From: a virus
Length of the DNA: 64,000 nt
IMG/VR virus record: IMGVR_UViG_3300025087_000061
Span: 1-64,000 of that record
Strand: one strand, 5' to 3'
The position numbers were made by a program, and so were the translations under genes. The first letter of the stretch is position 1. Each line of letters begins with the position of its first letter. This document shows, in pieces, positions 539-48,473 of the stretch. A model generated the notes under the pieces. That model ran no database searches and was not told the DNA's origin. It saw only the letters and a list, made by a program, of their open reading frames with translations.

Positions 539-568
539 AACCAACAACTTAATAAGGGATAATTTATT

Positions 569-975: not shown

Positions 976-983
976 GAGCAGTT

Positions 984-1532: not shown

Positions 1533-1534
1533 AT

Positions 1535-3202: not shown

Positions 3203-3203
3203 T

Positions 3204-4700: not shown

Positions 4701-4709
4701 AGGTAAGTT

Positions 4710-23522: not shown

Positions 23523-23535
23523 AATTTCTCCCGAA

Positions 23536-24327
23536 TTATAGGTTATTCAAAAACTCTTCAATTTCTTTATCTGTTTTATTTTGTTTCTTCAAAAGATAAA
23601 GACACTTATTTCTTTTTAATAGTTTATCAACATTTAAGCTTTTAACTGTTGATTCATGTGCTTGATGTAAAGTCAGTAGATCATCTCTTAAGATAAATCC
23701 TATCCCACTTTTTTCTACATCGTCCCTAAAGGCATCATCATCATAAGCATAGCCCTTACTAAATCTTTCATCAAATCCACCCATCTTTAAATAATTTTCT
23801 TTTGATAAACAACTACAAAAATGATATCTCGCATTCCTAAATTTTGTATGTTGATACCAAGAATGATGTTCGTATTTAAAACTATCAAAGGAATCAGAGA
23901 ATAATTTAAATTTGTGGATATTCTCACAACCGCATACTATATAAGAATTTGGTTGATTGTCAAAGATCTTGTCAAACCCGGCCAGAATATTTTCTTTATG
24001 AAAAACTTCTGGATTTGTTATGCAAATATATTCACCGCTCGCTTTAGAAACACCTAAATTAAATAATGGAGCGGGGTTATGATTATTGATAAAATTAGAT
24101 TCTACCAACTTGATATCAATATACTTATCGGCATTTTTAGTAAAAAACTTTAATATTTCTTTTAATTTATGGTGTTCTTTACCATCCTCTCTGTTTTTAA
24201 CATCTTCAACAATTATTACTTCATAATCATCTCTATTTTTATAATGATGATAGTAAGACAACAATGTATTATGCAGCCATCCAGCCCTTTTTATATACGG
24301 GAATACTATTGAATATTTTTTACTCAT
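23536..24327 (-). CDS. Family 2-like glycosyltransferase
   Basis: Starts with YSIVFPYIKRAGWLHNTLLS, then VIIVEDVKNREDG and NPAPLFNLGVSKASGEYICI, which follows the GT2 pattern, although the usual DxD appears as TNPEVFH. A later KMGGFDERF..YAYDDDAF block matches the conserved acceptor region seen in chondroitin-synthase-like GT2 enzymes. 263 residues. It overlaps the next gene upstream by eight bases and is part of a five-gene sugar/radical SAM cassette. Confidence 0.75.
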   Translation of the reverse strand: MSKKYSIVFPYIKRAGWLHNTLLSYYHHYKNRDDYEVIIVEDVKNREDGKEHHKLKEILKFFTKNADKYIDIKLVESNFINNHNPAPLFNLGVSKASGEYICITNPEVFHKENILAGFDKIFDNQPNSYIVCGCENIHKFKLFSDSFDSFKYEHHSWYQHTKFRNARYHFCSCLSKENYLKMGGFDERFSKGYAYDDDAFRDDVEKSGIGFILRDDLLTLHQAHESTVKSLNVDKLLKRNKCLYLLKKQNKTDKEIEEFLNNL

Positions 24328-25144
24328 TAATACCAGCCATTAATTTTAGAAGAAAATTGTCAAAGGTTTCAATATTTTCTTGTGTTACAATATTTTCGTA
24401 TTCACTAGTTTTTTCAGCACCAGCAAACCAATGAATACCAACCGTATTCTCAAATAAATTAGAGTGCTTGCCAAAAATTAATTCAATTTGTCTCCAGTCA
24501 AATGGATAGACAGTTGTAAATGGAATATTATCAATTTTACATTCATGTTTTTCTGAAAAATCTTCAGTATTTTTTTTGTTATATTTAAAAAAAGAAGTAA
24601 ATAAATCTCTCCCAATTGTTTGATATTGCAAATTATCTATTTTATTTATAGAGTTTACACACATATCAAACAATTGTTTAAAAAATTTATTATCCCCAGC
24701 ACTTGCCAAAAATCCAATATTATGACAATTATAGTGATAACAAATTAGAGTATCTTTATTTTCAAATTTATTAAAAATTTTATCTACAGAAGAAGTATAA
24801 AAAATATCAAAGTCTGACCACAAGCCCCCAACAGATGAAAGCAAACTCAATCTTAATAAATCCGACTTATGAACTTCAGATATTTCTTTGGCTAATTTAA
24901 AATCAGTTTCAACCAAAGACACATTTTTTATATTAGCCAAATCATCAAAATAGTCCTTCCCTACAGGGCAATATTTTTTTTGTTCAAACCCATCCCATTT
25001 AATTTCTTTATTAATATTTTTAGGATAGTAAACAAAAATTTGCCAATCCGGGTTTAATTTAGAAAAAGAAACAACTGTCAAATATTTCATATAAGACAAT
25101 GGTTTATTTTTACCCCAATATAGATGAATTTTCTTAGGTATCAT
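24320..25144 (-). CDS. GT32-like (DXD) glycosyltransferase
   Basis: The N-terminal IPKKIHLYWGKNKPLSYMK and the KSDLLRLSLLSSVGGLWSDF block, followed by DIFY, match the 'Gly_transf_sug' family (PF04488), which includes Och1-like and toxin-type sugar transferases. The DxD (DFD) binds the metal and nucleotide sugar. 274 residues. The start overlaps the methyltransferase stop, showing a translationally coupled cassette. Confidence 0.8.
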   Translation of the reverse strand: MIPKKIHLYWGKNKPLSYMKYLTVVSFSKLNPDWQIFVYYPKNINKEIKWDGFEQKKYCPVGKDYFDDLANIKNVSLVETDFKLAKEISEVHKSDLLRLSLLSSVGGLWSDFDIFYTSSVDKIFNKFENKDTLICYHYNCHNIGFLASAGDNKFFKQLFDMCVNSINKIDNLQYQTIGRDLFTSFFKYNKKNTEDFSEKHECKIDNIPFTTVYPFDWRQIELIFGKHSNLFENTVGIHWFAGAEKTSEYENIVTQENIETFDNFLLKLMAGINE

Positions 25145-25689
25145 TTATTCTCCCAAATCGCATACGTATTTTTGTCAATATTATCTGTAGATGTTTTAAA
25201 CCCAAATTTTTTAAATACTCTATCTGGTATAAAACATTTGTGCTCTTGATATTTGTTTATTCCAGTGCCTTTCCAATCTGAATCTGGAGAGTTCTCCATC
25301 CATTCAAATATATTATTTTTCTGACCCAACCAATTGATGTTAATATTGTCAAAGAAATGAGATGGTGTATAAATAATAACCTTTTTTCTAGCCATTCTTT
25401 TCATCTTTTTTATAAGATTATAAGCTTCTTTAAAATCAAGATGCTCTAATATATCTAAGGCAATTACAACATCAATTGTGTTTATTCCAAATTCATATTT
25501 TGTTATATCGGCACAAATAGCATTTACGCCCAGCAACTTAATTTTATTTATATAAGGCTCATATATATCAAATCCAACAAAAGATTTACACCTTAACCCC
25601 ATAACCTCTTGCAATACCCCGCATCCAAGGCTTGAAACAGAATCGTTTCCAGTTATTTCTTTTTGAACTAAATCACCTAGCCAATTCAT
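25141..25689 (-). CDS. Class I SAM-dependent methyltransferase
   Basis: A small Rossmann-fold methyltransferase: motif I in SVSSLGCGVLQEV, an acidic end of beta-2 in FVGFDIYEP, motif II near CADITKYEFG, and ALDILEHLDF as motif III. 182 residues. The substrate is unknown. Neighbours (two glycosyltransferases and a radical SAM enzyme) suggest sugar or peptide modification rather than DNA methylation, since no NPPY-type catalytic motif is present. Confidence 0.75.
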   Translation of the reverse strand: MNWLGDLVQKEITGNDSVSSLGCGVLQEVMGLRCKSFVGFDIYEPYINKIKLLGVNAICADITKYEFGINTIDVVIALDILEHLDFKEAYNLIKKMKRMARKKVIIYTPSHFFDNININWLGQKNNIFEWMENSPDSDWKGTGINKYQEHKCFIPDRVFKKFGFKTSTDNIDKNTYAIWENK

Positions 25690-25697
25690 AGTAAGCC

Positions 25698-26759
25698 TTA
25701 AATAAAATTAATATGTTTTGGTTTATCTTTGATACAATAATTTATGAATTCATTTTTAGCTTTATAAAGACAAGGATTTTTACATCTCAGATCAGGATTA
25801 TGAGATTTAAACATATTGATCTTGTCATCACTCATCCACAAATCTTTGAACGATTGATTTTTTATAGAACCAATCTTCCCTTTTTTATTATACGCAAGTG
25901 TACAGCAAGTATAGACATTATAATCAGCCCCTACATAAGCAAGTAAATCTTTTGTAGGACAAAAATTATAGTCTTGAACTCCCTCAAACATGTCTTTCAT
26001 TCTATCATTAAAAAGATTAAAAACAGTAAAATTATCATCAGATAGTTCTTGAGCTTTTTTAGCCAACTCAAAAGAATCTTCATATATGCCATCAAAATAA
26101 GAATAGCCATCTGGGGTAAAAGCAGCAGATATTCTAAAATTATCTACTCCAATTTCTTTAAATAATTTTGCTGCATCAAATATTTCTTTGTAATTATATT
26201 TGTTAACAACAAATCCTGCTCCTATAACACTATCTTTTTTGTATTTAACTAAATTTTTAATATTTTCAATAGTCCTGAAAAACATCTTTTTATTTACTTT
26301 TCTAAAAGATGAATATGTTTCTGGTGTAGCACAATCAACTGATATTCTAACCCAAGCTGAATCGCTTAAAATCTTACACAATTCATCATCTAACGCCATG
26401 CCATTTGAAACTAGAGCTAGTTCTAGTTTTCTATCTAATATATCTCTGAATATATTTTTAATTTTTGGGTGGACAAGAGGCTCTCCTCCTCCGGTTATTT
26501 GAATAGCTCTTACCCCCATATCAACACAAGAATCTAACGTTTCAAATAACCTTTCATAAGAAAGTAAGTCTTTATCATTAAATATTTCATTTGATTTATT
26601 CCCCTTCAAGCGATACGCACATGTTAAACAAGAATTGTTACACTTATTTGACGGAATAATCTGGACTTGCAATGGATTTGGTTGTTCTCCATCTTTAAAC
26701 TGAATTAATTTGTCAAAGCTATGAATAATTTTGTATGGTGAATATTCCTCTTTAATCAT
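25698..26759 (-). CDS. Radical SAM/SPASM-like enzyme
   Basis: Residues 40-47 hold CNNSCLTC, the CX3CX2C iron-sulfur signature of radical SAM enzymes, followed by the GGGEPLVHP motif near 90. The C-terminal third has a cysteine-rich tail (CTC, RCKNPC) and a GKIGSIKNQSFKDLW segment, as in SPASM/Twitch domains that bind extra clusters and often modify peptides or sugars. It would act in the cytoplasm. It is embedded between a methyltransferase and a glycosyltransferase, with overlaps at both ends or short gaps. The substrate is unknown. Confidence 0.85.
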   Translation of the reverse strand: MIKEEYSPYKIIHSFDKLIQFKDGEQPNPLQVQIIPSNKCNNSCLTCAYRLKGNKSNEIFNDKDLLSYERLFETLDSCVDMGVRAIQITGGGEPLVHPKIKNIFRDILDRKLELALVSNGMALDDELCKILSDSAWVRISVDCATPETYSSFRKVNKKMFFRTIENIKNLVKYKKDSVIGAGFVVNKYNYKEIFDAAKLFKEIGVDNFRISAAFTPDGYSYFDGIYEDSFELAKKAQELSDDNFTVFNLFNDRMKDMFEGVQDYNFCPTKDLLAYVGADYNVYTCCTLAYNKKGKIGSIKNQSFKDLWMSDDKINMFKSHNPDLRCKNPCLYKAKNEFINYCIKDKPKHINFI

Positions 26760-27385
26760 TTTTCTCCCCTATTCCAAATTGCCGAAAACTCTTTATCTAC
26801 TTCAACTGTCCCCAAATGTTTATTTGTACAACTCGTATCTATAAATATTTTATAGCCAGCTTGTTTAACTAAATTACAAAAATAAACGTCTTCACCAATA
26901 TCGAATTGAATGTTAGGATCTGGATTTTTCATAAAAGAAAAATAAGGCTTTTTAATTTTGTTGAAAACATCCATATTAACTAATAAACATGCTGCGCCAA
27001 CACTATCTACTTCAATTAACTCATTCTCTGGGACATTATCTATCGTTTTATAATTGTTTATCATACCATTAAAAGCACAGACTGAATATGGTGTAGTCCT
27101 CATAAAAGACAACCCAGATACAATAGGTAAGTTGTGTGAAAGTAACTTAATTATTGTATCTGGGTTATGTCGATGGTCTACATCAAGAAAAAGTATGTGC
27201 GTACAGTTGTATTTTTGTGCGGCGTCAACTAATTGATTTCTCATTGATGCCAGTCCTTGATAACCACCAGCTCTAAAAAATACGTGATTATCAGGCTTGC
27301 GCATAGCCATGAACGATTCAAAAAATTCAACTGGTACTGTATTGTGTGTTAATGGCACTCCTATAGCTAATTTTACGTCTTTCAT
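26756..27385 (-). CDS. Glycosyltransferase-like protein, paralogue B
   Basis: 209 residues with the same plan as the gene at 22866: LAIGVPLTHN, RNQLVDAAQKYNCTHILFLD, a VDHRH metal-site variant, LSHNLPIVSGLSF, and GEDVYFCNLVKQAGYKIF. It overlaps the radical SAM gene by four bases. Acceptor unknown. The cassette it opens lies between head-completion and tail genes, where virion decoration would be a plausible use. Confidence 0.65.
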   Translation of the reverse strand: MKDVKLAIGVPLTHNTVPVEFFESFMAMRKPDNHVFFRAGGYQGLASMRNQLVDAAQKYNCTHILFLDVDHRHNPDTIIKLLSHNLPIVSGLSFMRTTPYSVCAFNGMINNYKTIDNVPENELIEVDSVGAACLLVNMDVFNKIKKPYFSFMKNPDPNIQFDIGEDVYFCNLVKQAGYKIFIDTSCTNKHLGTVEVDKEFSAIWNRGEK

Positions 27386-30538: not shown

Positions 30539-31159
30539 TCACCTTGGATTAAATCTCTCCCAATATGTTTGATCTATTTCAATTGTACCTAAATGTTTGT
30601 TATCACAACCGGTATCACAATATATTTTATATCCAGCCTGTTTAGCCTTTAAACAAAATGCAAAATCTTCACTTACAACACCGTCGCCAAACCTATAATT
30701 CATTTCGAACCAAGGATAATTAATTTCTTTAAAAACACTGACATCAACCAATAATGAAGCAGCTCCAATAGCATCTACTTCAATTAATTCATTTTTATTC
30801 CATTGTATTATATTCTTGAATTTATCACCATCTTGTTCGAATATAATTGGGTCATATGGATAAGAACGCCTAAAAGATAAACCAGATACAATATCTTTAT
30901 CATGTGACAATAATTTAAGGATGGTATCGGAATGATGTCTATGATCTGTATCAAGGAACAATATATGGCTAAATGTCCCATCTTTAAGAACGGCATGAAT
31001 TATTGAATTTCGTTGATCGTCTACTCTTCCCCTATTCCCAATTATTACACTATGTTGGGGTTTCTTCAACTCTATCCATGATTCAAAAAATTTGGTCGAT
31101 AAAAAATCCCAGTTGCAAGGAAGACCAATGGCGATGTTAATATTACCCATTACAAACAC
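30539..31159 (-). CDS. Glycosyltransferase-like protein, paralogue C
   Basis: 206 residues, same plan as the genes at 22866 and 26756: IAIGLPCN, RNSIIHAVLKDGTFSHILFL, DTDHRH metal site, LSHDKDIVSGLSFRRSYPY and SEDFAFCLKAKQAGYKIY. It overlaps the HNH/AP2 gene upstream by ten bases. It stands alone among neck genes, separated from the main sugar cassette by about 3 kb. Confidence 0.65.
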   Translation of the reverse strand: MFVMGNINIAIGLPCNWDFLSTKFFESWIELKKPQHSVIIGNRGRVDDQRNSIIHAVLKDGTFSHILFLDTDHRHHSDTILKLLSHDKDIVSGLSFRRSYPYDPIIFEQDGDKFKNIIQWNKNELIEVDAIGAASLLVDVSVFKEINYPWFEMNYRFGDGVVSEDFAFCLKAKQAGYKIYCDTGCDNKHLGTIEIDQTYWERFNPR

Positions 31160-33243: not shown

Positions 33244-34524
33244 TTAACTTCTTGAAGTAATTACAATAAACGGAGAAATTGTGTCAGAACTGGCCTCTGG
33301 AGGCACCAATGCCTGCGGCATCCAGCTTTGACCAGCAACGTAAAAGCGCCACCGATATGCCATCTGATCAACGTCGAATTTTAGGTGCATAGAAGTGTCA
33401 AAACCAATACCACCATCACCACTAAGCATACCGAGTAGATACTGTTTCATGTCAGCAAGAATCAAATCGCCAGCAGTGCCTAAAGCTTTTGCATGGTGGC
33501 TAAAAACAACAGGGAGCCCAAACAACGTATTATACGGTTTCCCACTAGCCCCACCCGCTGGCATAAATACAGGGACACCAGCGGTGCCTACAGTTAGAGA
33601 CATGCTTGCAAGCTGAGGAAGAGTATTGGGGTTGGCAATCCAAACAGCATTAGATGGATTAATGCAACGCGCATACATTTTAATAACATTTTCCCAAACA
33701 ATGGTCGTAGCTGGTTGACCAGTCTCAGCAGTGATAGAGACAAGACAAGGGGCAGAGAGTAACCCCTGTGGCTGGCCAGCGCCAGTACCTTTAAGGATAA
33801 CCCTGTTCATTTCATAATTAAAACCATCAGTAAACCCTTCACGCAATATATTCTCCATACTCATAGGAGAAAAGCGAAGAATTTCATCACTAGCATAGGC
33901 AAGAGCTGTTACTTTATGAAGATTTAGATTAATATAACCAAACTTGATATTCTTTTCAGTAAGAGACCCTTCCTCTTCAGTCCATTGCCAAGCAACGTTA
34001 CCATATACCAAGTTCCCAGATTTATCGAAACCATTGACATAAGGAATTTTTACAGAATTTGACTGCATAGGAATTTGAGTACACCGACCCATCAACTCAT
34101 TCTGTTCTTTAGCCGCAACAAGAAGGTTTTGCCGAAATTCTTCAGGAACCAGATAACCACCGGCTTCGCCGTCACCAACATTCTGAGAAGGAGAACCAGC
34201 AGCTTTAATGGTTGCACAATTATCTTCCCATTTAGAAAGTTCTGGAGAGAGTTTACGATATCCAGACTGAGCAGCTTTAGCAACATCAGTTGCAAAGTGG
34301 GCAAGTGTTTTAAACCCAGCCTTCTTATCTTTTTCTGCTTCACTCTGACCAACCACAATACGTTTTTCAATCGGCTCTACTGCGGCTTTAATTTTTGCAT
34401 CAATTTCAAGAGCAAGCGATTCTTTAAACTTAAGAACAGCGCCTTCAACTACGGAAGCAGCACCCTTGCTGATAACTTCATTAAGTTCATCAATAGTCAT
34501 CTTACTTTTAGTTTCTTCAGCCAT
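33244..34524 (-). CDS. Major capsid protein (HK97 fold)
   Basis: A 426-residue HK97-type capsid subunit. Residues 1-110 form a helical, Lys/Glu-rich scaffold-like delta region. From about 115, AGGYLVPEEFRQNLL, then IPYVNGFDKSG, EEGSLTEKNIKFGYINLNLH and KGTGAGQPQGLL follow the family pattern, with the GLPVVFSHHA loop late. It assembles the head shell, and the N-terminal part is probably cut by the protease encoded just upstream. A GGAGGATA site precedes the ATG. Confidence 0.95.
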   Translation of the reverse strand: MAEETKSKMTIDELNEVISKGAASVVEGAVLKFKESLALEIDAKIKAAVEPIEKRIVVGQSEAEKDKKAGFKTLAHFATDVAKAAQSGYRKLSPELSKWEDNCATIKAAGSPSQNVGDGEAGGYLVPEEFRQNLLVAAKEQNELMGRCTQIPMQSNSVKIPYVNGFDKSGNLVYGNVAWQWTEEEGSLTEKNIKFGYINLNLHKVTALAYASDEILRFSPMSMENILREGFTDGFNYEMNRVILKGTGAGQPQGLLSAPCLVSITAETGQPATTIVWENVIKMYARCINPSNAVWIANPNTLPQLASMSLTVGTAGVPVFMPAGGASGKPYNTLFGLPVVFSHHAKALGTAGDLILADMKQYLLGMLSGDGGIGFDTSMHLKFDVDQMAYRWRFYVAGQSWMPQALVPPEASSDTISPFIVITSRS

Positions 34525-34597: not shown

Positions 34598-37063
34598 TTA
34601 ATCCTCAAATTCAATTATACCCTTAGCTTTTTTAATTCTATCTTCCACTAAATCAGAAAGATCGATCTCATCAAATGTCTTTTTAACTTTATCAACAAAT
34701 ATATCTTTTATTTGAATAGCATCAAAGTCAAATTCGACTTCTGATTTTTTAACCGGGATTTCTATTTCTATAAAATCAATGCTTTTTGTCTCTATATTAT
34801 TGCCAATATCTTTTTTCTTATCTACGTTCTTTAAATCTTGAATTAAGCATCTTTGCTCTTTCATTTGTTCTAAAGACTGAATTAGAGCTTCTTCAATACT
34901 AATTCCATCATCTTCAGCAATCATTTTAGCAAATTCTACTAATTCTTTTAAATGAATTAGTGAATATCCATCTGTTAATTTAGCAAACTCAGTTATAATA
35001 TCCTTATCGGCATCTTTTATAAAAAACTTTAATAGTTTTATTCTGTTATCTTCATCTGGAAGTGAAAAATTTATAATATGATGAAACCTACCAGGCCTAT
35101 CAATCAATGCGTCTGGAATATCTTCTGGGAAATTTGAAGTTAAAATAGTTAGAACACCTTTATTTTCCCTTATCCCATCCATTTCAGTTTTTAACAAATC
35201 AACAGTATAGCCACTAAGCCATGTATCAATATCTTCTAAAAAGAAAACACTAGGCGCAAGAGTTCTAGCCATTTCAAAGCCAATGCCTAAAGCACTAGCA
35301 GCTCCCCAGCCAAAATCTTTAGATGAAGCCCAGATAAAAGTCGTATCTGCTTTATTCATCAAAATCTTCCCAGTTAATGTTTTGCCCGTACCTGGGGAAC
35401 CAATAAACATCATTCCACGACTAGGAGACTTTGTAGATAATTTTTCAATATTCTTCTTAATTTTATCCTTTGCTTCATCATTTGGGAAAATGACATCATC
35501 CCATCCTATTTCCTTAACCTCAAGAAATTCTCCACCAATAGAAAATTTTTCACCTTTAAGATAATTATTCTCATCAACCCATTTTATAGCATCTCTGACA
35601 AACGATTTATTTAATTCAATATTTTTATTAGAAGTAAAAATATCAATACTTAAACCACCCCAATTTTTATAAATTTGAAAAACAAACCTATCACCATCAT
35701 TTGATTTATAAAATTGAGTTCCAGTTACTAAAAACTCTTCTTCTAATTTTGAATTCAATTTCACAACAGAATGCTGCAATGGGATTTCAGATCCATTACC
35801 ATAAAAATTTCTTTGATCAAGGAGTTCATGCTTAGACAAAACATTCTTAAATGCAGAAAGAAAATTGCCTTTCATAGCATTCGGGATAAAAAAATCTGTA
35901 GTGAAAATATCTTTTATTTTACACCCCAAATATTTCGTAAAAATTTTATATTCAAATCCTGCCGGTTCTGTCCTTACTTGAGTAATATCAAAATCATTGA
36001 CATATTCTTTTTTTATTTTTTCTAAATCAACATTTTTTACTTTTAAAGAATTGAAAAATTTAATTCTTGCATCTATTACATCTGTTTCCTTTTTAATCTC
36101 TACTTCCTGTTTCTCTTTATTAAAATCATCCAATTCTTTTTCAATGATTATGTCTATGTCTATCTCTGATTCTGATTCTTTAACATCCTCTAATTCCTGA
36201 TCTTTCTCAATTAAAGTTTCATCAATATCCACATTATCGGAAATTAACTCCCCTTCCGGTTCATTAATAACGACAGTTTTTTCAATTATTTCTTTATCGG
36301 AATCTTTAGTTACGTCTTCATTATTTTCTTTACTGCTAATAAATTCTATATCAACATACCAATTGCCCATTTTTTTGATATCTTCTTTTTCCTTACTTAT
36401 GAAGTCATCACCAGCCAATAATCCAAAAACTTCATCAGGGATATTTATTTCTTTAACTATTTCTTCTTTTTTCTTTTCTAAATCAACAAACCCAACAATT
36501 TTTGCTTTCTCATTATCTTGGTCAATTTCATTTACAAAATCAACAATAGATTTTGTAGTAATCTCTCCATTAGCCACTCTTTCTACTAATGCTGAGTAAT
36601 GGTCCGGCACTACAACAGCTGATATTTCCAAAAGTTCAACTTTTTTAAAAACCCTATCAGGGATTTTGCCGCCTCTAGTATATTTTTTTATTTCAACTTC
36701 ATTCATATCATCTTTATATAAAATTTCTTTAGGAATAAAGCCTACAGAAAATGCATTCATAACTCCGCTAGAGTATAACTTGTAAAAAGTTTCTCCTTCT
36801 TCAGTTTCAGCAAACTTAACCTTGAATTTTAATCCCTGACCAGGATAGACTTTAGTCCAAGCTGCCCTACCAATAGGAGGTCTATCATATTTATGGAAAG
36901 CGGGGATGACAGGATTTTCTATAAAATTTTCTAATTCCCAAGCATTATCATCAATTAAATCTCCACTTCTATCTATAGAATCTGATTTATTCGCATAAGC
37001 AACTACAGATTTTTCTACCTCATTCACTTCTTTTTGAAAAATATTTTTAAATAACTTTTCCAT
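34598..37063 (-). CDS. Prohead protease fused to AAA+ ATPase
   Basis: Residues 1-175 match the HK97 prohead protease family: His57 in AFHKYDRPPIGR, Ser106 in MNAFSVGFIP, and acid Glu146 in ELLEISAVVVPDH. Residues about 180-350 are a charged Glu/Lys linker, and about 350-540 an unfamiliar domain. From about 550 comes a complete AAA+ module of the BCS1/FtsH-like kind: Walker A GSPGTGKT (about 554-561), Walker B SVFFLEDIDTW, sensor ILTSN and an arginine-finger-like RPGRFHH. HK97 proteases are usually about 200 residues with no ATPase. An energy-driven unfoldase joined to the maturation protease is the simplest reading. Confidence 0.85.
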   Translation of the reverse strand: MEKLFKNIFQKEVNEVEKSVVAYANKSDSIDRSGDLIDDNAWELENFIENPVIPAFHKYDRPPIGRAAWTKVYPGQGLKFKVKFAETEEGETFYKLYSSGVMNAFSVGFIPKEILYKDDMNEVEIKKYTRGGKIPDRVFKKVELLEISAVVVPDHYSALVERVANGEITTKSIVDFVNEIDQDNEKAKIVGFVDLEKKKEEIVKEINIPDEVFGLLAGDDFISKEKEDIKKMGNWYVDIEFISSKENNEDVTKDSDKEIIEKTVVINEPEGELISDNVDIDETLIEKDQELEDVKESESEIDIDIIIEKELDDFNKEKQEVEIKKETDVIDARIKFFNSLKVKNVDLEKIKKEYVNDFDITQVRTEPAGFEYKIFTKYLGCKIKDIFTTDFFIPNAMKGNFLSAFKNVLSKHELLDQRNFYGNGSEIPLQHSVVKLNSKLEEEFLVTGTQFYKSNDGDRFVFQIYKNWGGLSIDIFTSNKNIELNKSFVRDAIKWVDENNYLKGEKFSIGGEFLEVKEIGWDDVIFPNDEAKDKIKKNIEKLSTKSPSRGMMFIGSPGTGKTLTGKILMNKADTTFIWASSKDFGWGAASALGIGFEMARTLAPSVFFLEDIDTWLSGYTVDLLKTEMDGIRENKGVLTILTSNFPEDIPDALIDRPGRFHHIINFSLPDEDNRIKLLKFFIKDADKDIITEFAKLTDGYSLIHLKELVEFAKMIAEDDGISIEEALIQSLEQMKEQRCLIQDLKNVDKKKDIGNNIETKSIDFIEIEIPVKKSEVEFDFDAIQIKDIFVDKVKKTFDEIDLSDLVEDRIKKAKGIIEFED

Positions 37064-37901
37064 TATATAATCCCTCTAAAAAATCTTTTTTAAATTTATA
37101 AAATTGTTCCGGCGTAGTTATTTTACCATATATTTTATGGAATAATTTATGTTCATCATTGTTTAATGTCACAACATTATTAATATCAAATAAAATATTT
37201 TTAAATTTTATCCAATTGTCTTTATTAATATTATTTTCTCTAATTATTGTTGACAAAGATTTTAAATGATGATGGATTAATTTGCTCCTATTATTTTTAT
37301 TCAATATAATTGATTTATATTCATCTCTTTTAAAACACCTTTCTCTATTTTTAATATAACCAGAAGACTTCCTTATTAAATCTTGCAAAGATGTTAACCC
37401 GCCCTTCCATTGTGGACTATTTTCTTTAATATACTTACCAACCCTAGCACAATCTGTACATTTTTTAGAACAATATTTTCTTTTACTTCCACGCCTGTAT
37501 AAATTCAGCATCCGTTTATTAAAAATTTTATATTCTTTGCCACAATATTCACAAATTAAAAATATTGTTGAGACATCTTTTTTATTATTATCATAACATA
37601 TACGAGAACAATACTTTTGATTAGATTTATTACTTTTGGGTTTATACGTCTTACCACAATATTCACAAATTTTATTTTCTATAAATATTTTATCGAAGGC
37701 ATAACAATAATGAGAACAATATTTCCTTCCATCTTTTATTTCAGAATTCCTTGCTTTATAGGCTATACCGCAATATCCACAAATAAGGCAAACACTATTA
37801 TTTTTAATAGATTTTTTATTTTTACAAATAGAAGAACAATATTTTTTTCTTTTGATACTAGTTTCAAATTCTATAGAACAAAATTCACATTTTTTAATCA
37901 T
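37047..37901 (-). CDS. Zinc-finger HNH homing endonuclease
   Basis: 284 residues. The N-terminal 170 residues hold five repeated zinc-binding units of the form CxxC..KxYCSxxC (for example CEFCSIEFE and CEYCGKTYK), followed by NSPQWKGG and a C-terminal HNH-like segment (LIHHHLKSL and NNVVTLNNDEHKLFH). It overlaps the start of the prohead protease-ATPase gene by 17 bases. It is likely a mobile intruder. Very AT-rich even for this genome. Confidence 0.75.
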   Translation of the reverse strand: MIKKCEFCSIEFETSIKRKKYCSSICKNKKSIKNNSVCLICGYCGIAYKARNSEIKDGRKYCSHYCYAFDKIFIENKICEYCGKTYKPKSNKSNQKYCSRICYDNNKKDVSTIFLICEYCGKEYKIFNKRMLNLYRRGSKRKYCSKKCTDCARVGKYIKENSPQWKGGLTSLQDLIRKSSGYIKNRERCFKRDEYKSIILNKNNRSKLIHHHLKSLSTIIRENNINKDNWIKFKNILFDINNVVTLNNDEHKLFHKIYGKITTPEQFYKFKKDFLEGLYNGKVI

Positions 37902-38967: not shown

Positions 38968-40794
38968 TTATTTAAACCTTACCGAACCTGCGCCTTCTTT
39001 AGACCTTACCGAACCAACAGACTCAGTTGATGCCACAATGCTGAAACTCGCTTCCGTGCTTGTTGCGTTTGCGTTGCCAGAACCATCAATACACCTGATG
39101 TAATAAGTGTATGCCGCGTTGCAATCCAGGTTTACGAGGCTTGTGGTGTGTGTAGTTCCCCCGCCACCTGAGAAAGTAAAATCCATATCGGCGTAGGCTT
39201 CATCGGTAAGGCTTCCTTTGCAGGTGGCAGACTCATCTGTTGTCGCGCCAAGCACTTTGGTTGTTGGGTCCGAGGGGCAGGATAGTTCTCCGGTAAGCGT
39301 AACGCCAGAGATAACCGGCGGGTCAAGGTGTGTGATGGTGATAACCGGGCTCGCAACGATGGCTGCAGATCCGGTGAGGATTGAGGCCGGGATTGTTGCT
39401 GTTATCGTCTCATCTGCTGAGACGTCATAAGCATCTACTTTTACAATTAGAGTTATCTGCGTATCACTGTTACGGATGCAGTCAGCGTACGTCCAGTTTG
39501 CTTCATCATCCCAACTGCCTGCCCCAGACAATGAGCCGTTGAAACCAGCCAGTAATGCGGTAGTGGCTGCGTTATCAGCACAAGCCGTCGCAATAAAGGT
39601 GTCGCCATCCAACGTGATGATTATTGTCTGGTCATCTCCGGCAAGCTCTGTTTCAGTTACTCCGCCTGTTACGGCTGTGCCTGTGAGTGTTGCGTTTACC
39701 CCTAACATGGCAAAATATGTAGGCCCTATACGACTGCCATCAATAATAAAATCATCGACATAGTAGGCCATATCCAAGGCTTCCGAAATTTCTCTGATAA
39801 GAAACGAATGGTTGCCACCAAAGAAAAACTTATTATAATTGTAGTCCTGGCCTGCCTCAACTACAACTCCGTCTGTTTTTGTAAATATTTTTGTAACATT
39901 CCCTTCAGCATCGTACAACCACATTTCAGAGACAGCATCGGCATTCCCTGCCGTTCCTGTGGTTTGATGGAATTCTATCCCAAACCACTGCTCATTGCCG
40001 ATAGCTGTCCCCAAAAACGGCTTAATGCTATACGCAGTGCCTCCACCGTCTACGGCATCATATGCCTCGTACAGCAGGTCATTATTCCAGTCTGCATCAT
40101 AAGCCGAATCGAGACGGAGGCCTGGTTTGAAAAATAACTCATACCCGTAGGTTGCTCCTGTTTTTATGTCCGGCAAATAATGTGATTGCCCATAAACCTG
40201 GCCTTGCCCATCTGCCTGAGCGTATTCGTCATATATTGAACTGGCTGAGTATGCCCCAGCCACAAGAGTGTTAAATTTGTAATAACTCCAATACCCGGTG
40301 AAATTTCCGCTTTCATCCCTGTAAGGGAAATGGTTGTAGGGCATCTTCACCATATAGAAAATATAAATGTCATCATAACCAGAATCTATGGTCCCTGATG
40401 TTGCATACCCATCACCAAGCGTGAAGTACAAGCCGAACCTGGAAGGTCCTTTGTGGTCAACCGTGCCTTGTTGGGATAGATCAAGCCGTAACGACTTACC
40501 TGTGCCCTGCCAAACATTTGCTGCCCCATGATTTGCAATCCAATCATAGGTGCTATCGGTGCTTGACTGGTAATAATACATGTTCCAGATTGAAGCTGAA
40601 TTATCTGCTGATTTAGTTGGCAAATTATTAAAATAATACCCAACTCCTGTTGATGTTCCACTCCAGTCATTAAGCTGGTCGAAAGTCTCTACAATATCAA
40701 AACCGGCACCTTCAAGATCTGACTGCCAATCAGCCACAGCCTGGACCGGCAAGGCCAATATGATGAAAAGCAAAAACTTAATAGCCACTTGCAT
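38968..40794 (-). CDS. Secreted multi-domain protein (jelly-roll, Ig/FN3-like)
   Basis: 608 residues from ATG 40794, which has AAGGTG upstream; the frame extends to 40824. A signal peptide (MQVAIKFLLFIILALPVQAVA) leads into a lectin/lyase-like jelly-roll part (about 25-365, ending YYVDDFIIDGSRIGPTY), then a beta-sandwich repeat and an FN3-like domain. The jelly-roll resembles carbohydrate-binding or polysaccharide-lyase folds. The protein should leave the cytoplasm. GC content is visibly higher than in flanking phage genes. A short repeat VGSVRSK/AGSVRFK ends it. Confidence 0.65.
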   Translation of the reverse strand: MQVAIKFLLFIILALPVQAVADWQSDLEGAGFDIVETFDQLNDWSGTSTGVGYYFNNLPTKSADNSASIWNMYYYQSSTDSTYDWIANHGAANVWQGTGKSLRLDLSQQGTVDHKGPSRFGLYFTLGDGYATSGTIDSGYDDIYIFYMVKMPYNHFPYRDESGNFTGYWSYYKFNTLVAGAYSASSIYDEYAQADGQGQVYGQSHYLPDIKTGATYGYELFFKPGLRLDSAYDADWNNDLLYEAYDAVDGGGTAYSIKPFLGTAIGNEQWFGIEFHQTTGTAGNADAVSEMWLYDAEGNVTKIFTKTDGVVVEAGQDYNYNKFFFGGNHSFLIREISEALDMAYYVDDFIIDGSRIGPTYFAMLGVNATLTGTAVTGGVTETELAGDDQTIIITLDGDTFIATACADNAATTALLAGFNGSLSGAGSWDDEANWTYADCIRNSDTQITLIVKVDAYDVSADETITATIPASILTGSAAIVASPVITITHLDPPVISGVTLTGELSCPSDPTTKVLGATTDESATCKGSLTDEAYADMDFTFSGGGGTTHTTSLVNLDCNAAYTYYIRCIDGSGNANATSTEASFSIVASTESVGSVRSKEGAGSVRFK

Positions 40795-41548
40795 TATACA
40801 CCTTCCCGTTGTCAATATATCCATCAGAGGTTAAAACTGTAGCGCTAGCCCCGCCCCATGCAAACACGGTGTTAGAACCAGTAGACGCGGCAGGGTCGTT
40901 GTCTGCTTCCGCAGTAACACAGTTGGTTGTGCCGTCAGCGTCACAAGTTTTTACATACATGTCATTTCCTGCCGCCGTCTCTTCTATCCACCCAGCTTCA
41001 AAATAAAACCACTCGCCTTCCGCACGGCCACTGCTGGCAGGGATGTTTACTGTATCCGCTGTACCGCCCCCGGTATGTGTGAGCAAAAGAAGGATATCAG
41101 CGGCATCACCTAGCGATGCAAAAGACAAAAATACCCGGTTTGATGTATCCAAAACGTTGTACCATATGTACTGCGCATCAGCATACATCCCAGTGCCAAC
41201 ATAACACCTGCCAGAAATTTTCCCGTCTGAAACAAGATCAGTTGCAGTTGTAAACTCGGCCCTGGAGCTTGCCCCATCACCATGGATTGCTGATGCGCCG
41301 TCATAGAATTGATCGGTCGTTCTTGCTGCGCCACTCTGATAAGTGGGAGATGTATCTTCCGTCGAGCACCCGGCAGGAGTTCCGGTTGTTACGTCATCCG
41401 TCTCCATGTGCCAGGAGTGGATCAGTGTCCCGGTACAGGAGTCTCCGGCAGTGGCAGTCTCATTTACATTGTTTTCCCCGCCCGGACCCCAGGCAAAGGC
41501 CTGAAACGGTGCGAGAAGAAGTGCAAGAAATAAAAACCGCTTTATCAT
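40778..41548 (-). CDS. Secreted LamG-like protein
   Basis: 256 residues with a signal peptide (MIKRFLFLALLLAPFQAFA) and a jelly-roll domain of the laminin-G type (SWHMETDD, FYDGASAIHGDGASSRAEF). Such domains often bind sugars. GC-rich. It overlaps the next gene by 17 bases and the upstream gene by four, so it is part of one operon cassette. Confidence 0.65.
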   Translation of the reverse strand: MIKRFLFLALLLAPFQAFAWGPGGENNVNETATAGDSCTGTLIHSWHMETDDVTTGTPAGCSTEDTSPTYQSGAARTTDQFYDGASAIHGDGASSRAEFTTATDLVSDGKISGRCYVGTGMYADAQYIWYNVLDTSNRVFLSFASLGDAADILLLLTHTGGGTADTVNIPASSGRAEGEWFYFEAGWIEETAAGNDMYVKTCDADGTTNCVTAEADNDPAASTGSNTVFAWGGASATVLTSDGYIDNGKVYNASGY

Positions 41549-42564
41549 GAAGCACCCCCATCAACCCAGGTTCCGCTGCGGCCATTGGTATTGGCCTTCG
41601 TGGTTGACCGGTTGTGGATGCAGATAAAATTCCCAGCTGCTCCGGGGCTGTCAAGTTCGTACCCAGCTCCGGCAAGAGCGGCACCATCCAGGTAAATTGT
41701 CATGCCGTCAGATTGAGGGTCAATCTTCACAACATTGGCACCGTCAGAATAGACACACCCTGAATAGTCAGCGATCGCCGGCCAGAGTATTGTTGTGGCC
41801 GCATTGATGTACCACCACGATCCAGACTGAAGAGGACCGGGGGCAAGCTTCCATACGTCCCCATCGTCCCAGTTATTATCGGTTCCACCTGTCAAAGTAC
41901 CGACCAAAGTCGTGCCTGCATTATCTATAACCGGCGCGACTGACCCATCGGTTACGTTGTAAACCGTCATGCCTATGCAGCCGTCAACCGGCAGTGACTC
42001 GCTGGAATCGGTCATAAAAGCAGCATCGGCACCACCATCATGCACGCCCTCGGTGGTGGTCAAAGAAAAGCTTTTCGTATGGCCGTTGATTGTTCCGCTG
42101 CTTTCGACGACCATGTCATTAGAAAAAGAGACTGCGACATTTGAAAGATCCAGTGTTGCAAGTGCCTCAATCCAGCCCTGCACCTTCGTCGCCATGTAAG
42201 TTGCAAAGTCAGTCAGGGCAACCTGCACCATCGTGCCGTTGTCGTTTACTACGGCCCGGTCAGCATCGACAAGCGTGGTGGCTGTTGCGGCTGTATCGCC
42301 ATCAGATGTGGCTGTAAGCTCGGTTGCGGACGGTGTCATGTTGGTTATCCCAGACACGGTTAATGCAAACGGCGCATATACATCCTCGCCGATCAATGCC
42401 TGAATCTCTGCCGAGGTGTCCACGGTTGGATCTTGCTCTGTTGCCGCGTTCGTGCCGCCCTTATTGGCGTCCTGATAGCCGTTGTTGTCAGCGTCAAGCT
42501 CAACCGCTAAGGCTTTCCAGGGAATCAGCAGAACAAGTGCCGCTATCAATAGAATTTTATTCAT
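41545..42564 (-). CDS. Secreted fibre-like protein (339 aa)
   Basis: Signal peptide (MNKILLIAALVLLIPWKALA) then an acidic, Thr/Ala/Asp-rich beta protein whose C-terminal half (CIGMTVYNVTDGS and GNFICIHNRS) looks like sequences in phage tail fibre and neck-fibre proteins. Role unknown. GC-rich, coupled by ATGA overlap with the LamG-like gene. Confidence 0.6.
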   Translation of the reverse strand: MNKILLIAALVLLIPWKALAVELDADNNGYQDANKGGTNAATEQDPTVDTSAEIQALIGEDVYAPFALTVSGITNMTPSATELTATSDGDTAATATTLVDADRAVVNDNGTMVQVALTDFATYMATKVQGWIEALATLDLSNVAVSFSNDMVVESSGTINGHTKSFSLTTTEGVHDGGADAAFMTDSSESLPVDGCIGMTVYNVTDGSVAPVIDNAGTTLVGTLTGGTDNNWDDGDVWKLAPGPLQSGSWWYINAATTILWPAIADYSGCVYSDGANVVKIDPQSDGMTIYLDGAALAGAGYELDSPGAAGNFICIHNRSTTKANTNGRSGTWVDGGAS

Positions 42565-42575
42565 TTGTCATCTCC

Positions 42576-44213
42576 TTACCATGTAGCGGTTTCACCGCCG
42601 AAAGTTGCTGATTCACCACCAAAAGTTACTAGCTCGATATGCAATCTACCCCCACCCAACGAATAACTGTCAGGTGTCCCCAGAAACCACAGGGGCGGCG
42701 GCATTGTCATGCCTTTGCACAACTCGTATGCGCCGATTGGCTCGCCAGACCCGCAATAGATATTGTCGTGGGCGGTGCCGGCGTCAAAGAGCGATTTGAG
42801 GCGGGGACGGCCTTGAGTGTCGAGGAGGGGATTGTCGGTTAAGTCGGTGGCGTCGAGCGTTATGTCATTGTCAGGTGCATTGTAAACAAGGTTGTCGTGC
42901 TCCACAGCGACAGATCCCGCGCTTGTTTCAAACCCTTTGCTTGTCGGGCTGTCACAGAGGTTATTAATCCACGTAGTGGTATTGCCTATGTTGTCACCGT
43001 CAGCTTGACTAAAGCAAACATTTGGGGAAATAACAGTGTTGCCAATCCATCGATTCCCACTACTCTCGTTGCTAGCGTTCCTCAACCCCATGCCGCTTGA
43101 ACCACTTACGAGATTATGCTCTACAAGGTTTCCAGTTCCTTTGAAAATGCTTATGCCCCGCCCCCCGCAAGCCGCGTTGGTGTTTTTAATAATATTTCTG
43201 GCGACATAATTGCCTGTTGACAACAGTGTGTCATCGGTGTTCGACCAATCCAAGATAATGCCACATCCGTCGCAACTTGCCGTGTCAACACTATCAATCC
43301 TGTTATCGATTACGTCAACCTCGTTAATCCAATGGAGCTGAAGGCAATTTACCATTGGGTAGTCCGAGTCACCACATTGTCCTACATGATTATCCTCTAT
43401 TGTGCTGGCTAAAGTTGCACCGTTGATGCCACCAGGAAGACCCATAAACGGTCCCCGTGTGTGGTCAACATCATTCCTCGCAACAGTCAATCCTTCGACT
43501 CTATGCCCTCCGCTCCAGACATCTGCGTCAGCGGTGCCGAATATGAAATTTTTGAGGTAGTCGCCAATGTTATCGGTAATGGAGATATTATACGGGTGTT
43601 TCGCATTTGCTCCCGCCTGCGCCATCCTGATCCCTTCCATTGTCCCATTGCTGCGAAAATCATTGTGGTGAAAATTTATGTTGTAGGAATCAGCGGTTGA
43701 CGTGTAGATATCAAGGCATGTCTGGGATGTGTCCGAATCGCAAATAATATTCTTCACTTCAACATCATGTTGCCCGAAAAAGTACACTATGCGCCCGAGA
43801 GCGGCGCCGCCCGCAAACGTCAGAGTGCCGAGGCCGTCAATTTGATAGCACCCTCTACCAGCTACCCCAAAAAGAAATCCTTGCGTTGCGGAGTAAGACA
43901 AAACCGGTGCATCCCCAAAAGCTGGCGCAAAATAATACAGCGCATCCGATGTGCCGGTGGCCCTGACGATAAGCTGCCCGTCAATGGGGCCAGCATCGTC
44001 GCAAAAGTAAATTGTATCACCCGGGGTCATATCCGCGGCGTCTGTTCCCCAGTTATCTTGCGCGGAAAACCAAGACTCATCATGGGCAGTAGCACAACTT
44101 GTACCTGAATCATCGCCTTGAGTTGCCCCAGCAATGTAGACGCCCTTCGCCCCCGCCACGGACGGCATGGCCAACATGAGGGACAGAAGCAGGGCTAGAA
44201 TTTTCTTGATCAT
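42576..44213 (-). CDS. Secreted right-handed beta-helix protein
   Basis: 545 residues with signal peptide (KKILALLLSLMLAMPSVAGA) followed by a long parallel beta-helix region (about 120-450) with repeated N-rich turns such as NIICDSDTSQTCLDI and NYVARNIIKNTNAACGG. This fold is shared by pectate lyases and tail spikes. It is likely exported and may bind or cut polysaccharide. GC-rich. The C-terminus ends in repeats of TFGGESATFGGETATW. Confidence 0.65.
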   Translation of the reverse strand: MIKKILALLLSLMLAMPSVAGAKGVYIAGATQGDDSGTSCATAHDESWFSAQDNWGTDAADMTPGDTIYFCDDAGPIDGQLIVRATGTSDALYYFAPAFGDAPVLSYSATQGFLFGVAGRGCYQIDGLGTLTFAGGAALGRIVYFFGQHDVEVKNIICDSDTSQTCLDIYTSTADSYNINFHHNDFRSNGTMEGIRMAQAGANAKHPYNISITDNIGDYLKNFIFGTADADVWSGGHRVEGLTVARNDVDHTRGPFMGLPGGINGATLASTIEDNHVGQCGDSDYPMVNCLQLHWINEVDVIDNRIDSVDTASCDGCGIILDWSNTDDTLLSTGNYVARNIIKNTNAACGGRGISIFKGTGNLVEHNLVSGSSGMGLRNASNESSGNRWIGNTVISPNVCFSQADGDNIGNTTTWINNLCDSPTSKGFETSAGSVAVEHDNLVYNAPDNDITLDATDLTDNPLLDTQGRPRLKSLFDAGTAHDNIYCGSGEPIGAYELCKGMTMPPPLWFLGTPDSYSLGGGRLHIELVTFGGESATFGGETATW

Positions 44214-45016: not shown

Positions 45017-46393
45017 TTAATTTTGCAGAACAGCTAATTTTTTAGGATTATCAATTATATTTCCAGCGCCAGTACCTTGAGCTATATTAGATAAAACGCC
45101 ATCCATAGTTGTCATGTTGACCGCAATTAATGGTTCATCAAATCTTTTATCAAATTTTTCCTTACCCAATCCTGTTCTAACTTCATTAATTGATTCAATT
45201 CCTGTTTGAACATGTTTAATTCTTTCATTTAACAATTCTTCTCTTGAGTCAGGAACGCAATTATCATATGCTAGAAACAATTTTTCATCATATCGCCAAA
45301 TCAATTTTTCATTTAACTTTTCTTCAATTCTTCTCAATCTCGGTTGGATTGTAAAACTCATATATTGATATATAGCAGCGTCTACATTCGCTCTGTTCGC
45401 TTCTTTACTATACATACCTAGTGCTTGTCCAAAAGCGTTTAAAATCAACTCTCTTATCTTTTCTCTGCCACCAAGATAAGACATTTCTTTAGGCGAAGTT
45501 CCAACTGGTTTAAATTTTAAACCACTATCAAGTAATGGCATTTTCCCCGCATTTTTAGGGCCAGTAAACGCTTGTTTAATTTCAGCCTTTAATCTTTCAA
45601 ATTCATGATCTCCTAGTTCACTATCTGTTTCAAATGTCCCTGACAATGTTCCTTGATTTTTGAACATTGCTTCTTCATATTCATTTATAGAATGGTTTAA
45701 TGAATATTCTTCAGTAATAGAAGAAAAAGGAGGGAACCCATAATAAACAGATTTTGGATTTGGCATTTTAAAATGAATCACAGCTTTTTCTTTTAAATCT
45801 ATAGACTGTGTTCCTTTTTGATATTGATAACCAGAAATAAAACTTTTACTATCTGGAACAACTTTACAATTTTGTGGCGGAATAATCCAAATTTCTTTTG
45901 GGATACCCATTCTGTCTTCAAGAATATGCCAGAATGTATTTCCAGTAAGTTCCTGATACAACTGCGTCATTTGCATCAGGTCAAAATTATTCATGAAATT
46001 GTTTACATTTTTTTTCAAATCAAGAAATGGATGATCAAGAACTTCTTCAAATTCGCTAGCTTTTCTAACAGAAGTTATATTTGATAGAAATGGATTTTCC
46101 CTAATAAAAGCGTCTTGAGATTTTGAAATATTTCTCGTAGGAAAATTTTTTATTTTTTGGCCTTTCTTATTTTTTGCCACATAAAGTCTAAGAGGAATAT
46201 TTGCTACACTATCAGCATTTTTAGAACTTGCAATATATACCCAAGACTTATAAGAATTCACCATCGCATTAAAATCATCTTCTGGGTACAACTCTCTGCC
46301 ATATTGCCATGGGTAAAGCCATGGCAATGACGTTCTTTTTCTTCCAACTCTAGCAGCTCTCATTTCAATTTCATATTTAAAAGGGTCTATCAT
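45017..46393 (-). CDS. Portal protein (HK97 gp3-like)
   Basis: 458 residues. It forms the twelve-fold ring through which DNA enters and leaves the head. Family-typical blocks: SYKSWVYIASSKNADSVANIPL near the N-terminus, MTQLYQELTGNTFWHI, HFKMPNPKSVYYGFPPFSSI, MFKNQGTLSGTFETD, and the C-terminal helical part with TIQPRLRRIEEKLNEKLIW. It follows the terminase genes, the usual order. Its start overlaps the stop of the preceding gene by one base. Confidence 0.95.
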   Translation of the reverse strand: MIDPFKYEIEMRAARVGRKRTSLPWLYPWQYGRELYPEDDFNAMVNSYKSWVYIASSKNADSVANIPLRLYVAKNKKGQKIKNFPTRNISKSQDAFIRENPFLSNITSVRKASEFEEVLDHPFLDLKKNVNNFMNNFDLMQMTQLYQELTGNTFWHILEDRMGIPKEIWIIPPQNCKVVPDSKSFISGYQYQKGTQSIDLKEKAVIHFKMPNPKSVYYGFPPFSSITEEYSLNHSINEYEEAMFKNQGTLSGTFETDSELGDHEFERLKAEIKQAFTGPKNAGKMPLLDSGLKFKPVGTSPKEMSYLGGREKIRELILNAFGQALGMYSKEANRANVDAAIYQYMSFTIQPRLRRIEEKLNEKLIWRYDEKLFLAYDNCVPDSREELLNERIKHVQTGIESINEVRTGLGKEKFDKRFDEPLIAVNMTTMDGVLSNIAQGTGAGNIIDNPKKLAVLQN

Positions 46394-46728
46394 TATTTAT
46401 TTCCTTGAGAAGCTTCAAGATAAACTTTATACCTATTTTTAAAAAAGTCTTCATGAAAATATTTTTCAATAAACTCTTTTTTTTCTGTATCAAAATATTC
46501 TGTAATAATATACAATTTATTTTCTTCTGGTTCTAATTCTCTTAAAATAAAATCTGGTGATGAGGAATAGTCTTTAATATAAAATTCTATCCCATCATGA
46601 ATTAATAAAAGACCTTTTGGAAATATTTCTTCTAATTTTGCAGAAAAAAAATAATAATTTTGAGCCAAATTTTTTGTTGCAAATATATAAAAAATATTGT
46701 AAAGTAGTTTAAAAATATTTTTTATCAT
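46393..46728 (-). CDS. Hypothetical protein (111 aa)
   Basis: N-terminal hydrophobic/aromatic stretch (FKLLYNIFYIFATKN), then charged. Unknown. Lies between terL and portal with overlaps on both sides, and is probably a small accessory of packaging or head assembly. Confidence 0.5.
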   Translation of the reverse strand: MIKNIFKLLYNIFYIFATKNLAQNYYFFSAKLEEIFPKGLLLIHDGIEFYIKDYSSSPDFILRELEPEENKLYIITEYFDTEKKEFIEKYFHEDFFKNRYKVYLEASQGNK

Positions 46729-48473
46729 ATTACTCTTATATGAGGAATCGCAGGCTCAAAGAAACATTGCATTAAAGAAGCAAACTTGTCTGGGCTTCTC
46801 CCAATCTTCTTTTTAATTGTTTTCTTATCACTTACTTTAATTTTACCACTACTTTGGTCTTCGTAATATTCAAACGCGAGCATCTCTTCCCTTAAATCAT
46901 TATCATCCGGAATCATAGCTGAAGGATCTTTCTTAAGCCAGTCAGCTATGGTCCAGGCCAACTCATCTCTTATTAAATGAAACTTACCCAATTCACATTT
47001 TTTTTGACTTGGTGAACTTACATAAACTTTTCTGGCATTAATATGGCATCTTGCCATTTCTTTATGACAAACAGGGCACTTATAAATACTTTCATCAAGA
47101 TAAGTTGTTTTATAATGAGAGCATTCATTATTTTCACACCTCCAATACCACATTCTACCAACTCTCGGAGGTATTGCAGCCCCAATCCCGTCAGCTTCTA
47201 CATTAGCCTGATCTGCATCCAAACTTACATAAATTTTACTAAGTCTATCTGATGATTTATCTAAATCAACACCCTTCCAACTTTCAAATCCATCTATATA
47301 ATTACCATATCTTTTAGCAACACAACAATTATCTCCACCCTCATCAGCAACGTCCATTCCTAGTAATGGCTTAATCCCTTTTATTACATCCTTCCCGTAT
47401 GTTGCCCGATAAAGTTTCCATCTACTTACAGCATTATCTATATCCACCATACTTATTAGAGAACTTTCTGTACAAGATGGGTACTCCCCTAAAACCTTAT
47501 AGGAAAAAGCAGGATTTGTTACAACCCTCCATCCACCCTTTAAAGGTGGATAGAATTCATTATTTCCTGAAGGTTTTTCACCAGTAACCCCAATTAAAAA
47601 TTCAGGAACTTCAAAACAAGATTTATCAACCTCTTCATCATCCCTTAACTCTCTTGACCAGCTATTAATCCTTTCAACAACTTTATCTCTACTTACTGCT
47701 CCTGGAATTAAATTTTTGCCACTCACTACATTTGGGTGATTAAATGCAGACATTGTGATTACATTTGCTTTGCCTTTAGTCAATTCATAGACATACCCAG
47801 ATTGACGTTTTGGGTTATACATATTTAATTGCCTACTGCCATCACCTGAAAGACACCCATCCTCGCCTTTAAAAACCTCATCTGGGATAGCATCACTTTC
47901 ATCATTTTCATAAAAAAGATAATCTGCATGCTGCCCACTAAATTTAGCTTCTCTTTCCTCAGCAGAACCAGTGGATGGAATTGTTTTTCCAGTTATAAAA
48001 TGTTTTCCACTACTTTCTCCGTAATCATCTTCTTTGCTATTTAAATTAATGTCATCTGTTATTTTTAAATTTAAAATTCTATCACTTTTAAATAATTTTC
48101 TATTTTTAACAACAATCTCTACTATCTCACTCCAAAGTTTTTCCTTTAAATTATTTTCAGGAGGAGCAGCAACGGCAATTGTTTGTGATTTTGGGAAACA
48201 GCGATAATGCCAAATAGCAAGAGCTGCGGCACAAAAGGTTTTTCCAGTTCCGGTCGCTGATTTAACAACTGTGACTTTATTGTCTCTAACAGATTCAGCA
48301 ATTTTAATTAAATCATCAGGAATTATTTTTATTTTTAAAATTTCTCTAAAAAAAACAACTGGATCTTTTTGATATTTCGTATAATCTATATCATCCAGCA
48401 AGACCGATTTTATTTCATCTTCATTAAAAAGATTAGCAAGCAAATCTAAAGCTTTTTCATCTATGCCCATCAT
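46725..48473 (-). CDS. terL: Terminase large subunit, with zinc-ribbon insert
   Basis: 582 residues. It pumps DNA into the head and cuts it. The ATPase half has Walker A SATGTGKT and an acidic Walker B region in YLFYENDESD. The nuclease half has GMDVADEGGDN and VEADGIGAA, both with metal-binding Asp residues, and RDELAWTIADW. An extra block at about 442-478 (CENNECSHY and CPVCHKEMARC) forms a predicted zinc ribbon between the last two nuclease motifs, not part of the usual domain. The start overlaps terS. ATG at 48470 is an alternative. Confidence 0.9.
   Translation of the reverse strand: MMGIDEKALDLLANLFNEDEIKSVLLDDIDYTKYQKDPVVFFREILKIKIIPDDLIKIAESVRDNKVTVVKSATGTGKTFCAAALAIWHYRCFPKSQTIAVAAPPENNLKEKLWSEIVEIVVKNRKLFKSDRILNLKITDDINLNSKEDDYGESSGKHFITGKTIPSTGSAEEREAKFSGQHADYLFYENDESDAIPDEVFKGEDGCLSGDGSRQLNMYNPKRQSGYVYELTKGKANVITMSAFNHPNVVSGKNLIPGAVSRDKVVERINSWSRELRDDEEVDKSCFEVPEFLIGVTGEKPSGNNEFYPPLKGGWRVVTNPAFSYKVLGEYPSCTESSLISMVDIDNAVSRWKLYRATYGKDVIKGIKPLLGMDVADEGGDNCCVAKRYGNYIDGFESWKGVDLDKSSDRLSKIYVSLDADQANVEADGIGAAIPPRVGRMWYWRCENNECSHYKTTYLDESIYKCPVCHKEMARCHINARKVYVSSPSQKKCELGKFHLIRDELAWTIADWLKKDPSAMIPDDNDLREEMLAFEYYEDQSSGKIKVSDKKTIKKKIGRSPDKFASLMQCFFEPAIPHIRVI

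Follow-up and report, generated by a model that had tools for sequence, protein, structure and literature searches.

A prohead protease joined in one chain to a predicted Bcs1/YjoB-type AAA ATPase in the head-gene cassette of uncultured bacterial viruses

The window, by which we mean the whole stretch of DNA that was analysed (64,000 nucleotides, part of the 64,993-base IMG/VR virus record IMGVR_UViG_3300025087_000061), carries a head-gene cassette in which an HK97-type prohead protease and an AAA ATPase are encoded by a single gene. An earlier reading of the sequence alone, hereafter the sequence-only reading, had placed this gene at 34598-37063, which is correct, and had given no strand, which is minus. 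The gene, its domains and its neighbours are as follows.

34598-37063, minus strand: S78 protease-AAA fusion gene, 821 aa, a single open frame, present as a full-length ORF also in L002, L003 and L004
36581-37015, minus strand: Peptidase_S78 (HK97-type prohead protease) domain, residues 17-161 (Pfam PF04586, 33.7 bits, cut-off 21)
36893-36895, 36746-36748 and 36626-36628, minus strand: codons of the triad H57, S106 and E146, respectively, invariant in the family
35999-36556, minus strand: acidic linker, residues 170-355, 30% D+E (47-305 residues in relatives)
35483-35998, minus strand: middle domain, residues 356-527, putative Bcs1/YjoB-like N-domain from the structural match of the middle+AAA model
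34808-35482, minus strand: classical AAA ATPase module, residues 528-752 (Pfam PF00004, 65.3 bits; PDB profile matches to Cdc48/p97)
35378-35401, minus strand: Walker A, GSPGTGKT, residues 555-562 (G555, G558, G560, K561 and T562 invariant, 41/41)
35225-35245, minus strand: Walker B, FFLEDID, residues 607-613, with Glu before Asp (E610, D611 and D613 invariant, 41/41)
35081-35140, minus strand: second region of homology, residues 642-661, with sensor-1 N644 and Arg-finger positions R656 and R659 (41/41)
34956-34961, minus strand: six consecutive substitutions in this record only, sensor-2 Gly702-Ala703 to Leu-Ile
34601-34735, minus strand: C-terminal tail, residues 777-821, as in S78 proteins without AAA (tail profile)
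33244-34524, minus strand: major capsid protein, whose N-terminal ~105 residues resemble a delta domain (phrog_10, E 5e-46)
37047-37901, minus strand: HNH endonuclease, overlapping the start of the fusion gene by 17 nt (phrog_1271, E 1e-13)
45017-46393, minus strand: portal protein (phrog_2662, E 1e-57)
46725-48473, minus strand: terminase large subunit (phrog_2, E 2e-15)
48470-49168, minus strand: terminase small subunit (phrog_51, E 1e-28)

The order runs in one direction, with the small and large terminase subunits and the portal upstream of the fusion gene, the major capsid protein directly downstream, and head-tail adaptor and neck genes past the capsid gene. The interval between the portal and protease genes (38968-44213) contains several large ORFs that look secreted or tail-fibre-like, an unusual position for them, and glycosyltransferase-like and radical-SAM-like genes, judged by eye, lie within the tail and head-completion region (22866-27385 and 30539-31159).

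S78 was the sole peptidase found in the Pfam search, which returned neither an M41 zinc peptidase nor a Lon Ser-Lys domain; the match to TIGR01543 was under that model's own cut-off (23.9 vs 59). The catalytic residues picked out by the sequence-only reading, His57, Ser106 and Glu146, are present and invariant in the family (H in 45/45 with one gap, S and E each in 46/46), and the charged linker it described beyond them is indeed there and acidic. The protein shares with HK97-type prohead proteases (PF04586, HK97 gp4) the His/Ser/Glu catalytic domain, the position of its gene immediately upstream of the capsid gene, and a C-terminal tail common to S78 proteins without AAA, but it is several-fold larger than the catalytic domain, and an ATPase module separates its protease from its tail. 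In S78 protease-capsid protein fusions (phrog_617 type) the protease is likewise joined to a head-assembly component; there the partner is the capsid protein, whereas here it is an ATPase. As far as we know, prohead proteases are taken to be small enzymes that need no ATP and act as a consequence of assembly alone.

The 821-codon frame has no internal stops. Three independent contigs (L002, L003 and L004) carry the full-length fusion ORF in identical form without an indel, the AAA half is present and uninterrupted in L005, L007 and L008, and comparison of L002, L003 and L008 with the window over up to 18 kb gave seven base differences and zero indels. Because the whole ORF or its AAA half is intact in these independent contigs, a frameshift or missed stop between the two halves, which had been named as the finding that would undo the fusion, is excluded, and the architecture of the protein is near certain. 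That the fusion is an assembly artefact or a chance read-through of two genes is exceedingly improbable, for while the source is metagenomic only and one family member (L045) consists of two overlapping ORFs, the independent whole or partial copies are free of indels and 39 divergent homologues are also fused. At 34956-34961 the window differs from all six near-identical copies covering the site by six consecutive bases, such that the conserved Ser-Gly-Ala of sensor 2 reads Ser-Leu-Ile. An error of assembly could account for these substitutions, as could a multi-nucleotide mutation in this record; should the Leu-Ile change be genuine, it may impair the ATPase.

The distribution of the fusion was examined by a viral scan with an alignment of the middle domain and AAA, the search patterns being confined to the middle domain. 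The scan gave 59 loci, which together with other fetched loci yielded 44 non-redundant ORFs at 95%, although, the patterns having been derived from fused proteins, AAA proteins with a strongly diverged middle domain would escape it. Of the non-redundant viral ORFs, all found without using the protease, 42 were complete at the 5' end; an S78 domain was present in the same chain in 39 of these 42, and a capsid gene followed within 2.5 kb in 28 of the 30 members with more than 2.5 kb of downstream sequence. The domain order is the same in L013, with 47% overall identity to the window protein, and in L009, L014, L015 and L016, with 35-39%. The exceptions keep S78 alongside: in L017 the AAA lies inside an 1814-aa protein with a DNA-ligase domain (361-5805), S78 being encoded separately downstream; L057 has AAA and S78 as neighbouring separate genes; and in L045 the S78 ORF overlaps the AAA ORF. 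With these counts the AAA belongs to the head-gene cassette, as the sequence-only reading had needed it to, and the fused proteins make up a family, carried by uncultured bacterial viruses of a widespread group.

The S78-AAA fusion was not found in phage and plasmid collections, in which matches were to the AAA part alone or the protease part alone, and among bacterial and archaeal genomes it occurred on one Cloacimonadota MAG contig only, with no further carriers among 125 Cloacimonadota genomes. The AAA proteins of KPP25, Zuri and a Stenotrophomonas phage were considered as homologues with the same role and rejected: those of KPP25 and Zuri are encoded amid early genes or genes without annotation, that of the Stenotrophomonas phage is encoded a few kb from the terminase on the opposite strand, and all lack an adjoining annotated capsid or protease gene and an S78 fusion. 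Other features of the family loci include capsid genes downstream of the fusion that seem interrupted, intron-like, by endonuclease-like ORFs (L046, L047 and L048), an intein-like insert within the portal reading frame of L013 (1974-3938), and two capsid-like genes in tandem (about 410-440 and 340 aa) after the fusion in L014, L016, L036 and others.

The AAA module is complete, as the sequence-only reading had described it. The PF00004 match (residues 551-667) scored well above the cut-off of 21.2 bits, and Walker A, Walker B (E610-D611-I-D613), sensor-1 N644 and the arginines R656/R659 are invariant in 41/41 sequences. The closest curated sequence models of the AAA are FtsH, PAN and Cdc48, while the middle domain gave zero significant matches by sequence profile against the PDB. 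An AlphaFold model of the full-length protein from seven sequences was discarded (pLDDT 49.9), and a model of middle domain and AAA from 41 sequences reached pLDDT 86.9 and pTM 0.81. When this model was searched with Foldseek against the PDB, Bacillus subtilis YjoB (PDB 7w42, 7w46) ranked 1-3 (410 columns, E 8.6e-19) and Bcs1 ranked 4-8 (about 390-425 columns), whereas most matches to FtsH and to isolated AAA domains covered roughly 235-260 columns. The TM-scores to YjoB and Bcs1 were about 0.4-0.5 with high rmsd, presumably reflecting a different angle between middle and AAA domains in the model. A structural search of a viral library likewise gave as best matches AAA ATPases at full length, several of them named BCS1. 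Since YjoB and Bcs1 match end to end, the middle domain and AAA are, on the evidence of the model, one module of a known kind, the Bcs1/YjoB type; the "unknown domain" of the sequence-only reading therefore exists (~170 residues) but is not a separate one.

The two best matches differ from the viral protein in instructive ways. YjoB has chaperone-like activity and is soluble, as is the protein here, but it stands alone without a protease and has only ~21% identity to the viral module. Bcs1 (BCS1L), with the same middle domain and classical AAA, has a membrane anchor and translocates the Rieske protein, whereas no membrane helix was found in the window protein (19-residue hydropathy maximum 1.26). 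In moving folded proteins, Bcs1 works through concerted cycles and does not thread them (PMC11143374, PMC12219900).

How the module came to lie in the protease is suggested by relatives that lack it. In a capsid-protein scan, of which 80 loci were kept, 7 were fused, 40 had S78 without AAA and 33 had no recognisable S78. Among these relatives, L086 and L087 have capsid proteins 54-55% identical to that of the window and S78 proteins of about 490-520 aa with no AAA. A tail profile built from the fused proteins matched S78-only proteins at their C-termini (L086, E 0.001; L101, E 0.0016; L095, E 0.0078; L097, E 0.0086), and because the tail is common to both kinds of protein, sequence comparison indicates that AAA is an optional module inserted between the catalytic domain and the conserved tail; other accessory domains fill the same slot in S78-only relatives. 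That L086 and L087 do without AAA implies that the ring would be dispensable for that capsid type, and scaffold removal, one of the roles put forward by the sequence-only reading, is accordingly weakened as a sole job.

The protease domain itself also appears exchangeable. L005 has a near-identical middle domain and AAA and the same capsid protein as the window but a different S78 domain, with 29% identity to that of the window and 62% to that of L054; the near-identity starts within the linker, and the contig may conceivably be chimeric. HNH endonuclease genes abut or overlap the start of the fusion in the window (37047-37901), L005 (7358-7876) and L013 (6689-7969), adjoining the protease domain that is swapped in L005, and homing-associated module exchange near the fusion start is possible. 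In pairwise comparisons among 27 members, divergence of the AAA correlated with that of the capsid protein at r 0.62 and divergence of the protease with that of the capsid protein at 0.45, and the protease was least correlated with its own AAA (r 0.26), values that take no account of shared ancestry and owe something to gene order. These correlations are only suggestive that the partner of the ATPase is the capsid rather than the protease.

From the architecture, the conservation, the active sites kept intact across the family and the position in the head cassette, all given by sequence and model, we infer a ring, its substrate, its timing and its dependence on ATP. We put at about one in two the reading that the protein combines a prohead protease with a Bcs1/YjoB-type chaperone that acts on folded head proteins, the protease being held on a flexible tether. 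Like S78 proteases, the fusion chain would co-assemble with the capsid protein. The HK97 protease is reportedly packaged with the capsid protein during assembly, as Duda, Oh and Hendrix are said to have found in 2013; if the same is true here, the ATPase would enter the prohead. By analogy, the AAA modules would assemble into a chambered ring, a hexamer as in YjoB or a heptamer as in Bcs1, which in its ATP cycles would take hold of folded head proteins and rearrange them, the capsid protein or its delta region being the likeliest target. Such rearrangement would help assembly or expose the delta regions, and the tethered protease would afterwards cut the rearranged proteins. A more specific version, in which a Bcs1-type ring works in or around the procapsid and ATP drives or gates delta removal or shell remodelling that would otherwise be held to occur spontaneously, is offered tentatively.

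It is also conceivable, if rather doubtful, that the ATPase is a cytoplasmic chaperone that folds capsid protein before the prohead closes, the fusion serving just to ensure co-expression and stoichiometry. The adjacent AAA and S78 genes of L017 and L057 imply that the covalent link is non-essential, and in a jumbo-phage comparison standalone BCS1-type ATPases are proposed to act on folded, head-packaged proteins (PMC7824862); against this, the linkage is kept in 39/42 members despite the exchange of the protease domain in L005.

The sequence-only reading had inferred an unfoldase-protease on the plan of FtsH or Lon, in which the ring would unfold the capsid delta region or scaffold through its pore and feed it to the attached S78 protease. 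ATPase and protease do share one chain in those enzymes as well, the AAA here is classical with invariant ATPase residues, and FtsH, PAN and Cdc48 are its nearest curated sequence models. However, the peptidase of FtsH or Lon is a zinc metalloprotease or a Ser-Lys enzyme rather than S78, and the ATPase here is of another structural subtype, matched over its whole length by YjoB and Bcs1 and not by FtsH. Pore loop 1 lacks three residues relative to Cdc48 D1 and D2, and the aromatic-hydrophobic-Gly motif (positions 585-591) is not conserved; the linker, at 47-305 residues, is too variable to resemble a rigid ring-on-ring degradation chamber; and the AAA tracks its own protease least in divergence. 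Because of the Bcs1/YjoB match and the short, unconserved pore loop, we favour the chaperone reading, an ATP-driven chaperone with a tethered protease rather than a pore threading into a proteolytic chamber; the FtsH/Lon plan is not supported, and threading of that kind is less likely than Bcs1/YjoB-type action and on the whole unlikely.

Least favoured among the functional alternatives, and quite unlikely, is that the S78 protein is a packaging vehicle from which the AAA is cleaved free in the head, to be injected and act in the next host. The insertion of the module between protease and conserved tail, the other accessory domains in the same slot of S78-only relatives, and the AAA of L017 in one chain with a DNA-ligase domain would all suit such cargo, but AAA divergence tracks the capsid gene, a defence or host-takeover signature is absent, and ring ATPases require many copies per cell.

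Both halves of the protein are of known kinds, an S78 protease and, by the model, a Bcs1/YjoB-type classical AAA, and their combination is new; we found no report of an S78-AAA fusion in the open literature. The standalone phage BCS1-type ATPases offer the nearest precedent: they are of the same type as the ATPase here, a comparable role with folded head proteins has been proposed for them, and no fusion to a prohead protease is described for them in the accessible part of that source (PMC7824862). The suggestion made there gains a genetic link here, in that the ATPase is joined to the capsid protease. Viruses with similar capsids that either have or lack the module (the window and L054 versus L086 and L087) form natural pairs in which its role can be tested. 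The ATPase is conserved in the chain and divergent phages have retained its catalytic residues, which implies that a head step powered by ATP is under selection; these viruses may thus assemble or mature their shells with an input of energy.
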